Shown here piece by piece: positions 1 through 6,130 of a stretch of 12,026 nt of DNA. The stretch comes from Anaerolineaceae bacterium. Its GTDB lineage: Bacteria; Chloroflexota; Anaerolineae; Anaerolineales; Anaerolineaceae. The first letter of the stretch is position 1. Every line of letters begins with the position of its first letter. Both the position numbers and the translations under genes were made by a program. Location: contig PMIV01000214.1 of NCBI GenBank assembly GCA_003158355.1, forward strand, positions 7,689 through 19,714, in the 5' to 3' direction. Under the pieces are notes generated by a model. It was not told the origin of the DNA. It did no database searches and saw nothing but the letters and a program-made list of their open reading frames with translations.

Positions 1-1619
1 TCAAATGGATAATGCCATTGCGCATACGGCATGGACCCGGAATCGAACCAAACATCGATCAATTCGGGCACACGGTGCATCTTGCCGCCGCATTCTTCAC
101 ATTTGAAAGTGATCGCGTCCACGTAGGGCCGGTGCAGGTCAGAATCGGTGTAATCTTTGCCGGCTTTTGCTGAGAGTTCCTTTACCGAACCGACACAAGT
201 CTGGGTATGGCAATCTTCACATTCCCAGACGGGTAACGGAGTTCCCCAGTAACGTTCGCGGCCAAGCGCCCAATCGATGTTATTGGCCAGCCAGTTGCCA
301 AAGCGGCCATTCTTGATGTGATCGGGATACCAGTTGATCTGATCGTTCAAAGCCACCAGGCGATCTTTGAACTTGCTGGTGCGAATATACCAGGTCGGAC
401 GAGCGTAGTACAACAAGGGGGTACCGCAGCGCCAGCAGAATGGATAAGTATGTACATGCGGTTCCATGCGGAACAACAACCCGCGTTCCTGCAAATCTTT
501 GGTAATGAGGGGGTCAGCGTCTTTTACAAATATGCCTGCCCAGGGTTTCACATCCGAGATAAAGGTACCGTCTTCAGCCACCGTGGTAAGAATCGGCAGG
601 TCATTTTCGAGTGAAACAGCCATATCATCTTCACCAAATGCCGGAGCGATATGAACCAGGCCGGAACCGTCTTCGGTGGTGACAAAATTCCCTAAGATCA
701 CAAAGTGAGCTGATTTTTCGAGTGGCATAAAGGTGTACAAAGGAGAATATTTCTTTCCCTTAAGTTGTTTGCCTTTATAGTGCTCGAGCACAGTGACCGG
801 TTCCTCGCCAAAAACCTTATGTACCAGGGATTCGGCCAGGATGAGTTTCTCGGTACCGCCTTCTGCTAATGCGTGTTCGATTTTTACATAGTCAACTTCA
901 GCTCCCACAGCCACGGCCACGTTTGCCGGCAGCGTCCAGGGAGTAGTTGTCCACACCAACAGCGATGTTCCCGGTTCTTCTATCAGCGGCATGCGCACGA
1001 ACACGGAGGGATCGCTGACTTCGCGGTATCCGAGGGCTACTTCATGATCGGATAAAGGAGTGCCGCAGCGAGGGCAATACGGCACGACTTTGTATCCCTG
1101 ATAGAGCAAGTCTTTATCCCAGAAATTTTTGAGGATCGACCAGACTGACTCAATATATTCATTTTTATAAGTAATATAAGCTGTATCCAGATCCACCCAA
1201 TAGGCGATCCGGTCAGTCAGCTTTTCCCATTCCTGAATATAGGTAAAAGCGGATTCTTTGCACAACTTGTTGAATGCTTCAATGCCGTACTCTTCGATCT
1301 GCTGCTTATTCTTGAAACCCAGCTTCTTTTCAACTTCGATCTCTACCGGCAAACCGTGAGTATCCCAACCGCCGCGGCGGCTGACGTGATATCCGCGCAT
1401 CGTTTTATAGCGCGGGAAGATATCCTTGAACGCTCTGGCCAATACATGATGCACACCGGGTTTACCGTTGGCAGTAGGAGGGCCTTCAAAGAAAACATAT
1501 TCCGGTCCACCTTCGCGTTTTTTCATGCTTTGGTGAAAAATATCTTTTTGTTTCCAGAAACGTAAAACCTCTTCTTCGCTCAGTGTAACGTTGAGTCTGG
1601 GAGTAACTGGCTTAAACAT
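1..1619 (-). CDS. ileS: Isoleucyl-tRNA synthetase, N-terminal half (3' end outside window)
   Basis: Charges tRNA-Ile with isoleucine in the cytoplasm. The 539 visible codons cover about half of a usual IleRS (roughly 1,000-1,080 residues), so the KMSKS loop and anticodon-binding domain lie beyond the window. The start is the ATG at 1617-1619 with AGGAGG four bases upstream. Visible landmarks: catalytic-fold segment PPTANGKPGVHHVLAR (residues 47-62), WDTHGLPVE (85-93), the CP1 editing domain with WTTTPWTLP (223-231) and the HIAPAFGEDD motif from H323, then the VWFDSGS segment close to the window edge. The class I signature, normally H-x-G-H, is G55-V56-H57-H58 here. Editing residues look intact. 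The gene has its own promoter and a T-box leader, so it should be induced by uncharged tRNA-Ile. The overall style (EGPPTANGKPG, GWDTHGLPVE) resembles the eukaryote-like IleRS2 branch, which is an inference from memory of the family. Confidence 0.97.
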   Translation of the reverse strand, partial: MFKPVTPRLNVTLSEEEVLRFWKQKDIFHQSMKKREGGPEYVFFEGPPTANGKPGVHHVLARAFKDIFPRYKTMRGYHVSRRGGWDTHGLPVEIEVEKKLGFKNKQQIEEYGIEAFNKLCKESAFTYIQEWEKLTDRIAYWVDLDTAYITYKNEYIESVWSILKNFWDKDLLYQGYKVVPYCPRCGTPLSDHEVALGYREVSDPSVFVRMPLIEEPGTSLLVWTTTPWTLPANVAVAVGAEVDYVKIEHALAEGGTEKLILAESLVHKVFGEEPVTVLEHYKGKQLKGKKYSPLYTFMPLEKSAHFVILGNFVTTEDGSGLVHIAPAFGEDDMAVSLENDLPILTTVAEDGTFISDVKPWAGIFVKDADPLITKDLQERGLLFRMEPHVHTYPFCWRCGTPLLYYARPTWYIRTSKFKDRLVALNDQINWYPDHIKNGRFGNWLANNIDWALGRERYWGTPLPVWECEDCHTQTCVGSVKELSAKAGKDYTDSDLHRPYVDAITFKCEECGGKMHRVPELIDVWFDSGSMPYAQWHYPF

Positions 1620-1636
1620 GCTGCCTCCTGTTAAAT

Positions 1637-1662
1637 AAAAAATCGCCCATGATCAGGGGCGA
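1637..1662 (-). terminator. T-box attenuator terminator upstream of ileS
   Basis: A perfect 6-bp stem (TCGCCC at 1657-1662 on the minus strand, GGGCGA at 1643-1648) with an 8-base loop is followed by six T residues (1637-1642). It sits just before the ileS ribosome-binding site and shares bases with the antiterminator, which marks the leader as transcription-terminating rather than translation-blocking. Confidence 0.9.
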
Positions 1663-1897
1663 GATAAAATCCCGTGGTACCACCCTGCTTCCCATAAATA
1701 GGACGCTTGGTCAGGTTCATTTTTATAAACCTGTTTCAGAATAACGGTAGAAATTCCGGCTTTCTTACTGGCTCATTTGAGTGTTCGGATCGCAGCTCCA
1801 GAAGGATTTTCAACGTCAGGTCCTTACCCGGCTTTCACCCGCCCCGGATTCGCTGAAAGGTTCCATTACGTTTACTCTTTTCTATCTACGCTTGTAG
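1637..1897 (-). promoter_or_regulatory. T-box leader controlling ileS
   Basis: The untranslated leader of ileS has the parts of a tRNA-sensing T-box. The core box AGGGTGGTACCACG lies at 1673-1686; its TGGT should pair with a tRNA 3' end ACCA, which fits tRNA-Ile with A73. Upstream is an apical-type GGTGAAAGCC element, then GAAAATC with ATC (1805-1807) as the candidate isoleucine specifier codon, and a TGGAGCTGC segment. A perfect 6-bp hairpin (CAGGTT/AACCTG, 1712-1733) fits stem III. The AGGG of the T-box can pair with the CCCT at 1655-1660, which overlaps the terminator arm, so antiterminator and terminator exclude one another. The 5' limit is estimated from the promoter and the specifier position is inferred without folding. 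Confidence 0.93.
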
Positions 1898-1945: not shown

Positions 1946-3250
1946 TTATTGGATCACTCCGTAGAACAATGGCAAAGGATCTACCTTCTCGTCGCTCCAA
2001 AGATGAGCACCTAACAGGCGTTTCCGCGCATCTGCCAACTTCTTTTCATCATTGGCATGAATGGTGAACAGCGCTTGTCCCTTTTGTACCTGATCCCCAA
2101 CTTTGTGATGAATGATGATTCCTACAGCCGGGTCGATTGAATCGGTCTTCTTCATTCTGCCTGCGCCCAATTCCACCGAAGTCTCGCCCACTGTTTGCGC
2201 ATTGATCTCTTTCAGATATCCGCTGCGCGGAGCCGGAACGGTTTCGATCAAGCGAGCCTGAGCAAATTTTTCAGGATCATCAACATAGGCTGCATCACCA
2301 CCCTGGTTGACAACCAACTGGTGGAATTTTTCCCAGGAACGGCCGCTTTGCAATGTGTCGATAACCAATTTTTTGGCGTCATCCAGAGTGGCTGCTTTTT
2401 CACCCACTACCAGCATATGGCAGGCTACCTCAATACAGTGAGCGGTAAAATCCTTTGGCCCCTGTCCGTGCAGGGTGGCGATGGCTTCTTTCACTTCCAA
2501 TGCATTCCCCACTGCGTTGCCCAACGGTTGATTCATATCCGAAAGCAGTGCAACCACCTTGCGCCCGCTAAGTTTACCGATGGAAACCATCAAGCGGGAT
2601 AGCTGTCTGGCATCCTCCAGATTTTTCATAAAAGCTCCCAGACCAACTTTCACATCCAGTACAATCGCCCGGGCTCCACCGGCAATTTTTTTGCTCATCA
2701 CCGACGAGGCGATCAATGGGATAGATGGCACTGTGCCTGATACATCACGCAAAGCATAGAGCTTTCCATCCGCGGGCGCCAGGTCGGCAGTTTGCCCGGC
2801 CAGAACCAAGCCGGTTGTCTTGAGCAGCCGAATAAATTCATCTTCGCTGATATTGGTTCGAAATCCGGGAATGGATTCCATTTTATCCAGGGTTCCACCG
2901 CTAAAACCCAGCCCCCGTCCAGACATTTTTGCTACCGGTAATCCACAGGCAGCCACAGTTGGTTCTACCACTAACGTTGTTTTATCGCCAACGCCGCCTG
3001 TCGAATGTTTATCTACTTCTATTGGGATAACGTTCGAGAGATCGATCATTTGACCGGAATGTGCCATCGCTAAAGTGAGATCGGTTGTTTCCTGATCGGT
3101 CATGCCATTCAACAATACAGCCATTGCCCAGGCTGCCATTTGGTAATCGGGGATCTCATTTTTTGTGATCCCCTGAATAAAATAATTGATCTCTTCCTGA
3201 GAAAGTACCTTCTTATCACGTTTCTTAATAATAATATCTACCGGATTCAT
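1946..3250 (-). CDS. pdp: Pyrimidine-nucleoside (thymidine) phosphorylase
   Basis: Cleaves thymidine or uridine with phosphate to base plus (deoxy)ribose-1-phosphate in the cytoplasm, for nucleoside salvage. Its 434 residues match the family (433-440). Order: alpha-helical Glycos_trans_3N (about 1-65), the phosphate/nucleoside-binding Glycos_transf_3 domain (about 75-300) and PYNP_C (about 345-420). KHSTGGVGDK at 81-90 holds H82, equivalent to the catalytic H85 of E. coli DeoA; R168, S183 and K187 match R171, S186 and K190. The family signature at 110-125 (SGRGLGFSGGTLDKME) has Phe-Ser where His-Thr is common. GGAGG lies four bases before the ATG. The gene stands alone between the jag terminator and the ileS promoter. 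The sequence around DYQMAAWAM resembles the broad-specificity PyNP branch (pdp) more than DeoA, but substrate range cannot be read from sequence. Confidence 0.95.
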   Translation of the reverse strand: MNPVDIIIKKRDKKVLSQEEINYFIQGITKNEIPDYQMAAWAMAVLLNGMTDQETTDLTLAMAHSGQMIDLSNVIPIEVDKHSTGGVGDKTTLVVEPTVAACGLPVAKMSGRGLGFSGGTLDKMESIPGFRTNISEDEFIRLLKTTGLVLAGQTADLAPADGKLYALRDVSGTVPSIPLIASSVMSKKIAGGARAIVLDVKVGLGAFMKNLEDARQLSRLMVSIGKLSGRKVVALLSDMNQPLGNAVGNALEVKEAIATLHGQGPKDFTAHCIEVACHMLVVGEKAATLDDAKKLVIDTLQSGRSWEKFHQLVVNQGGDAAYVDDPEKFAQARLIETVPAPRSGYLKEINAQTVGETSVELGAGRMKKTDSIDPAVGIIIHHKVGDQVQKGQALFTIHANDEKKLADARKRLLGAHLWSDEKVDPLPLFYGVIQ

Positions 3251-5013: not shown

Positions 5014-6075
5014 TTATTTGCTTACTGTGTAACCCCAGATCTCATTCCCATTGGCGTCATAAGCAAATAACGGTTTATCGCCCTTGGTGGTGAGAACATA
5101 GAGGTGATCGTTGCTGAAAATAAGATTGGAATACAGTTTTCCGGTTAAAGATCGGGTCCAGGAGCGTTCCCCATTTTTACCGAGGACAATGATTTCCCCT
5201 TTTTCATCGCCAAAGACAATATTTGAGTTCATCACCGCGCCATTACCCAAAACCGGTGATTGAACGTCGATTGATTGAATAACGCTGCCATCTGAAACTT
5301 TTAGCATATTAATGATGCCAGAATCATCCCCGACATAGAGACGATCTTCGAGCACAACTGGCGCAGACCAGATGTTGCCTTTTAGAGTTGACTTCCACTT
5401 GATAGAACCATCAGTCGAATTCAGCGCCAGGAATGTTTTATCCAGAGTACCAACAAAAAGGGTACTGTTGTCCGCTGATAAGACACTACGTCCAATGAGC
5501 GGTCCGCCCAGATCGACTTTCCATTTTAATTTACCGTCAGACAGATTCAAAGCATACAAGGAATGATCAAGCGACGGAGCGTAGACTGTTGTACCATCGC
5601 TTACTGGAGTCGCCCAAAAAGCGTGGCTTCCCTTGAAAGACCAGATCAACTTGCCATTCGAATTCAGAGCATAAATATTTGCGTCAGCATTCTGTGCAAT
5701 GATCATGTCATTGATCACCAGAGGGGCATCAATATAACGGCCTTTTGCACCGGTAAACTGCCAATGTTCTTTTCCATCTTCGACGCCAATACTTACCAAT
5801 AATCCAGAATAATCACCGACGATAATTTGATCACCGGCGATCGCTGGCGCAGCATAAAAAAGCCGAGAAGACGCTGGCTTTTCAGGATAAGTCCAAATTA
5901 CATTTCCTGTATCTGCTTTTGCTGCCACCACTGTTGTGCCGTTAGCAAAATAAACGGCAGTATCACTGGCAGTAATTCCTTCCCAACTGTTGGTCGCAGT
6001 TGCGCTGGTGCATGAAGTCAATAAAATCCCCAGCAGAAGGATGAAGAGCACTACATAAAAACGTTTGATTTTCAT
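5014..6075 (-). CDS. PQQ-type beta-propeller lipoprotein (BamB-like repeats)
   Basis: A predicted 353-residue lipoprotein facing the outside of the cytoplasmic membrane. The start MKIKRFYVV is chosen because it gives a compact signal peptide (KIKR, then a hydrophobic stretch 8-19) with lipobox L-T-S-C and lipidated C22; AAGGG lies ten bases upstream. An in-frame ATG at 6111 would add 12 residues but has no ribosome-binding site and would bury the signal. The mature part is a chain of about seven PQQ/BamB-type repeats, recognisable by blade endings such as TGNVIWTY, DGKEHWQF, NGKLIWSF, DGKLKWKV, DGSIKWKS and NGNEIWGY. Beta-propellers of this type are mostly protein-binding scaffolds; no enzymatic residues are evident. 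It lies between yidD and yidC, 11 bases from the YidC start, which suggests (inference only) a role next to membrane or secreted protein assembly. Confidence 0.88.
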   Translation of the reverse strand: MKIKRFYVVLFILLLGILLTSCTSATATNSWEGITASDTAVYFANGTTVVAAKADTGNVIWTYPEKPASSRLFYAAPAIAGDQIIVGDYSGLLVSIGVEDGKEHWQFTGAKGRYIDAPLVINDMIIAQNADANIYALNSNGKLIWSFKGSHAFWATPVSDGTTVYAPSLDHSLYALNLSDGKLKWKVDLGGPLIGRSVLSADNSTLFVGTLDKTFLALNSTDGSIKWKSTLKGNIWSAPVVLEDRLYVGDDSGIINMLKVSDGSVIQSIDVQSPVLGNGAVMNSNIVFGDEKGEIIVLGKNGERSWTRSLTGKLYSNLIFSNDHLYVLTTKGDKPLFAYDANGNEIWGYTVSK

Positions 6076-6130
6076 TGTTCTATTACCCTTTGTTTGTGGG
6101 ATGATGCCCATTATATCTTGAATCTGAATA

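Follow-up and report, generated by a model that had tools for sequence, protein, structure and literature searches.

A swapped GXHH signature in the isoleucyl-tRNA synthetase of a probable Anaerolineaceae bacterium, and a divergent synthetase type in the same family

Results

The ileS locus

The window, by which we mean the whole stretch of 12,026 nucleotides analysed here, begins inside an ileS gene on the minus strand, and this gene is preceded by a likely ribosome-binding site, an intrinsic terminator and a T-box leader, with a gene for pyrimidine-nucleoside phosphorylase (pdp) upstream of the leader (Table 1). The encoded protein reads ...EGPPTANGKP-GVHH-VLARAFKD..., where the motif corresponds to ATGATGCACACC on the plus strand and to GGT GTG CAT CAT on the minus strand. 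From its N-terminal 539 residues only, the open reading frame scores 655.5 bits against the NCBIfam ileS model TIGR00392, above the curated cut-off of 621.4, which identifies the product as an isoleucyl-tRNA synthetase (IleRS). The GVHH of the window IleRS aligns exactly on the class I signature (HVGH in Thermus thermophilus IleRS, GVHH in chain 8c8w). The first-pass annotation had placed GVHH at residues 55-58, directly after PPTANGKP, and had read it as a HIGH motif with positions one and three exchanged; frame, translation and alignment bear out these points.

Table 1. Position of the features at the window locus and at loci with the divergent ileS type
Feature	Location	Strand	Basis or remark
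ileS, type-2 isoleucyl-tRNA synthetase, N-terminal 539 codons	Window 3..1619	-	Open at window left edge
GVHH, swapped class I signature, IleRS residues 55-58	Window 1446..1457	-	Translation and alignment
AGGAGG ahead of ATG at 1617-1619, likely ribosome-binding site	Window 1624..1629	-	Sequence
Hairpin UCGCCC/GGGCGA with U run, intrinsic terminator	Window 1637..1662	-	Fold and sequence
T-box leader RF00230	Window 1652..1897	-	98.5 bits, gathering score 93
T-box specifier codon AUC (Ile)	Window 1805..1807	-	cmscan alignment and sequence
pdp, pyrimidine-nucleoside phosphorylase, upstream of T-box	Window 1946..3250	-	Same order in relative L007
Divergent ileS	L137 1039-4482	-	GXHH and MHKS
Divergent ileS	L138 1381-4839	-	GXHH and MHKS
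Divergent ileS	L128 886-4344	+	GXHH and MHKS
Divergent ileS	L142, L153-L162		GXHH and MHKS
T-box before divergent ileS	L137 4530-4809
T-box before divergent ileS	L138 4884-5165
T-box before divergent ileS	L142 2231-2510
T-box and divergent ileS region	L128 611-7578 (G050)

In the assembly, two consecutive N bases fall within ileS immediately before window base 1 (positions 3188-3189 of L005), about 1.4 kb from GVHH, and leave the motif untouched. The downstream piece of the gene reads ...LDANGQKMSKSKGN... and has an intact KMSKS. Relatives have extra codons between HYPF and DQTRGWF at the place of the N bases, which as far as can be told are an assembly gap and no biological break.

The leader in front of ileS qualifies as an Ile T-box by its covariance score, by the AUC specifier, which was placed by what we take to be the rule for specifier location, and by the terminator before the start codon. 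The terminator hairpin has a folding energy of dG -10.4 with a z-score of -3.67 (0 of 200 shuffles as good), and the antiterminator stretch 1654-1690, folded alone, is no more stable than its shuffled versions, 57 of 200 of which fold as well. The order pdp - T-box - ileS - lspA - rluD is common to the window locus and relative L007, lspA and rluD downstream of ileS being named from sequence. That ileS has a T-box of its own and sits among ordinary genes, not on a resistance element, as had been proposed at first pass, agrees with the leader score, the terminator and this recurring gene order. A T-box at gathering score was found at 13 of 20 related loci tested, 12 of which have the standard ileS and one the divergent type (see below), and the count for places is 12 of 19 since L007 and L099 are one contig. 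The other seven loci have none at gathering score; a weaker T-box is present in L128, which is one of these seven, and in L138. Further along the window, a reading frame for a BamB-like, PQQ-repeat lipoprotein-like protein (5014-6111, minus strand) lies between yidC and a yidD-like gene, the latter named in the same way, and is also found in L007.

Assignment to type 2

The IleRS of the window scores higher against solved chains of IleRS2 (677.6 bits for T. thermophilus, 618.7-631.2 for Priestia megaterium) than against those of IleRS1 (256.0 for Staphylococcus aureus, 243.7-251.9 for P. megaterium and 173.2 for 8wnf/8wni), with eukaryotic cytoplasmic chains in between (482.5-505.2). The fold can be regarded as settled because the sequence matches solved IleRS2 chains. 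A quick tree of 91 rows was made from 86 rows, kept out of 147 from the loci and the window by thinning on locus number, together with four PDB sequences and one ValRS; it is rooted on the single, very long ValRS branch, and long branches were flagged by the program. In this tree the IleRS1 branch (E. coli, P. megaterium and chain 8wnf) has an SH-aLRT support of 99, the other 87 IleRS rows form one group, IleRS2, with a support of 96, and the window IleRS lies inside a Chloroflexota clade of 28 rows with a support of 100.

The residue markers point in the same direction. Tyr-59 (E. coli numbering) and NKIL are described as markers of type 1, and HYPFE as a marker of type 2 (PMC4861432). The window protein has GPPT, RAFK at the position of the type-1 NKIL, and HYPF at the window edge, where the final E is not visible because the N gap hides the next residue. 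Among 55 standard N-termini of the family, GPPT is found in 53 and GPPS in two, where type 1 has GPPY; NKIL is found in none, and HYPFE in 43, the other 12 being cases where it is absent or off the end, so that some of these may truly lack it. Type 2, as suggested at first pass, is thus supported by tree, markers and chain scores alike, and the motif at the class I signature places the enzyme among the G/AXHH IleRS2.

Conservation of the motif in the family and phylum

The nearest named relatives of the window are metagenome-assembled genomes (MAGs) of Anaerolineaceae, phylum Chloroflexota, with identities of 82% and 78%. When TIGR00392 was run at E 1e-100 over a family sample of 61 genomes and over 14 control genomes, ileS was found in 59 of the 61, two giving no match at all, and the model matched in all 14 controls. 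The C-terminal ileS fragments G037:C180, which is the only match of G037, and G046:C292 stand outside the count of N-termini. The 55 standard N-termini read GVHH (50), GIHH (4) or GSHH (1), and three further family genomes (G006, G007 and G035) yielded the divergent type only, also with GVHH, which gives GXHH in 58 of 58 readable family genomes. No type-1 ileS was seen among the N-termini read from these 58 genomes; the E. coli control is a bearer of type 1, since the tree places E. coli in IleRS1. The window gene is ordinary for its group, because every family relative read has GXHH.

These counts also bear on the reading that the gene truly encodes HVGH and that GVHH comes from faulty sequencing or assembly. 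The assembly gap in the same gene could be taken in its favour. An error would however need several separate base changes, and the 55 standard family genes without exception carry G[V/I/S]HH, as do (in the form GXHH) 63 of the best 80 of at least 577 related loci, the remainder of the 80 having HXGH (15), HVAH (1) and GVHM (1). The error at 1446-1457, checked as a possible flaw in the first-pass claim, was not found, and we regard this explanation as vanishingly improbable; it was rejected on the ground that the family sequences carry the same motif.

Across the phylum, an IleRS match at E 1e-40 was obtained in at least 290 of 301 genomes, a figure that concerns presence and identity only. The GVHM case is an IleRS-like protein in L062 (5971-8865, plus strand), from a MAG titled 'bacterium', in which the fourth histidine is lost as well. 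In the HVAH case, L069 of a Bacillota MAG, the third-position glycine is replaced by alanine. KMSKS is kept in 68 of 85 loci read, and mild variants (KMSKT, KMSKH, KMAKS and KMSKR) occur in standard GXHH IleRS of Anaerolineae, at L006, L008, L010, L011, L086, L087, L102, L116, L119, L121, L124, L127, L129 and L131, some of which are the same contig.

A housekeeping gene or an acquired copy

The window gene is the only strong ileS match in its own genome, whose assembly (84% complete, 292 contigs) could lack a second ileS that the organism has. The other matches in the genome, among them C28 and C212, are 23-28% identical, and C28 is presumably ValRS-like, judged by its PPPNVTG motif. An acquired resistance copy of the MupA/MupB kind, standing beside an undetected housekeeping type-1 ileS, would be compatible with this incomplete assembly and with the match of the window protein to the MupA and MupB models, at 587.8 and 599.5 bits. 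These scores, from a partial protein, are however far under the models' cut-off of 1900, and the near full-length standard gene of L128 reaches only 885.2 and 855.7 bits, respectively. The Ile T-box, the gene order in common with L007, the presence of the same gene type with GXHH in 55 of 61 family genomes sampled and the lack of a type-1 gene among the family N-termini read also speak against an acquired copy, which we consider very unlikely and have rejected on these grounds. Our results are in line with the proposal of the first-pass annotation that this is the primary chromosomal ileS, and the search for a second copy that it called for found none.

A divergent IleRS with both signatures altered

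Some Chloroflexota have a divergent IleRS of about 1050-1180 residues, with ITANNPMGVHH around the first signature and MHKSxGN replacing KMSKSxGN (Table 1). The combination of G/AXHH and MHKS was found in all 120 of the best 120 database relatives of this protein; the strict pattern is present in 118 of them, and the other two differ only beside the pattern. A DNA pattern for ITANNPMGXHH, which finds the divergent clade only, occurred in 111 of 301 phylum genomes sampled, and in 67 of the 216 good ones. In the tree, the divergent rows form a clade of 10 (support 100), whose sister group is made up of the remaining 77 IleRS2 rows.

Thirteen Chloroflexota genomes were chosen, mostly for contiguity and in two cases since both types seemed to be present. 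In 11 of the 13, nothing but the divergent gene scores above the TIGR00392 cut-off, and these include G083, which is one contig, and G217, which is two; each of the 11, G006 among them, has GVHH and MHKS. The remaining two, G212 and G265, also hold the standard type, with GIHH and KMSKS.

All four divergent copies in the family of the window sit behind a T-box, with 94.4 bits in G007, 94.0 in G035 and, below gathering, 85.9 in G006 and 73.7 in G050. The T-box of G007 has AUC at the specifier position, and lspA, again named from sequence, is the second gene downstream of ileS there and the next gene in L007. No standard ileS was found in G007 and G006. The divergent ileS looks like it displaced the standard gene at one locus, and three states can be seen: the standard gene alone in 54 of 58 family genomes read; the divergent and the standard gene in tandem behind one T-box in G050 (L128); and the divergent gene alone behind a T-box in G007, G006 and G035.

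Discussion

The data argue strongly that the window gene is an ordinary housekeeping type-2 IleRS with a natural GXHH signature, from a probable member of Anaerolineaceae (Chloroflexota). The GXHH swap, its share among IleRS2 and its link to mupirocin have already been published, in 2023 (PMC10485003). In that work by Brkic et al., 379 IleRS were compared and type 2 comprised 86 sequences with G/AXHH and 77 with HXGH, none of the G/AXHH sequences of the set being of type 1; G/AXHH, present in 86 of 163 IleRS2, was linked to mupirocin hyper-resistance. For the IleRS2 of Deinococcus radiodurans (ALHH) the mupirocin Ki is 6.6 mM, which is lowered 823-fold by HVGH, and introduction of GVHH raised the Ki from 0.20 to 35 micromolar in T. 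thermophilus IleRS2 and from 1.08 to 460 micromolar in P. megaterium IleRS2, with kcat and KM altered by up to about 10-fold (PMC10485003). The first-pass description of GxHH as a natural, known type-2 form with high mupirocin resistance agrees with these published enzymes.

The window IleRS shares type 2, the residue swap and the housekeeping role with the G/AXHH enzymes of Brkic et al. 2023, such as those of Streptomyces griseus and D. radiodurans, and differs from that set in coming from Chloroflexota and in being known from sequence; the window gene lies under an Ile T-box. Its best-scoring solved structures are T. thermophilus IleRS2 (1ILE) and P. megaterium IleRS2 (8C8U, 8C8V, 8C8W and 8C9D), whose natural motif is HVGH (PMC10485003, Table 1), whereas the window has GVHH; chain 8c8w reads GVHH, as expected of the motif-exchange mutant in that paper.

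By analogy with the published enzymes, the type-2 active site would move the signature motif away from the adenosine, and with the motif so shifted a third-position histidine could fit and catalysis survive. The same histidine, which is said to clash with mupirocin (PMC10485003), would weaken the binding of the drug, and the IleRS of the window is accordingly predicted by us to be strongly mupirocin-resistant. As to control of the gene, a build-up of uncharged tRNA-Ile would lead the T-box to suppress the terminator, and ileS would be transcribed. Dehalococcoides is a lineage of Chloroflexota other than Anaerolineaceae. For its ileS, an Ile T-box was described in 2008 (PMC2494555), and that case has phylum (Chloroflexi), regulator and an Ile tRNA ligase in common with the window, where the T-box is found in the other lineage, Anaerolineaceae.

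It is possible, although we think it somewhat improbable, that something other than mupirocin lay behind the swap, for instance a different inhibitor of IleRS or drift that the type-2 site tolerates, with resistance as a by-product. Nothing here ties the window bacterium to mupirocin producers, and the presence of the motif in all family members read would fit an old, inherited trait as well as selection acting today; against this stands the size of the effect of motif exchange in the published enzymes, about 175 to 823-fold on the mupirocin Ki (PMC10485003, Table 1 and text). Such an origin and the housekeeping GXHH IleRS2 explanation are not mutually exclusive.

A minor, early-branching IleRS2 clade that has GXHH and few sequences of Planctomycetota and Chloroflexi has been described (PMC10485003), and may be the same as the divergent MHKS clade. 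In the main text of that paper 'mhks' has 0 occurrences, and no account of the MHKS change turned up in a search of open-licence PMC papers. We tentatively suggest, at a little short of even chances, that at the T-box-ileS locus of Anaerolineaceae a deeper IleRS lineage with both signatures rebuilt, GXHH for the first and MHKS for KMSKS, has taken the place of the standard GXHH IleRS2, and that the process has been caught in the three states described above.

Overall, the housekeeping IleRS of the sampled Chloroflexota family normally carries a motif that has been linked to hyper-resistance, with no acquisition, and GXHH alone is therefore no ground for naming a gene a resistance gene. An IleRS with both signatures altered, which is the sole IleRS found in some genomes, would test the need for the HIGH/KMSKS rule, and the displacement series, if true, would make it possible to study why both signatures are abandoned in an essential synthetase.
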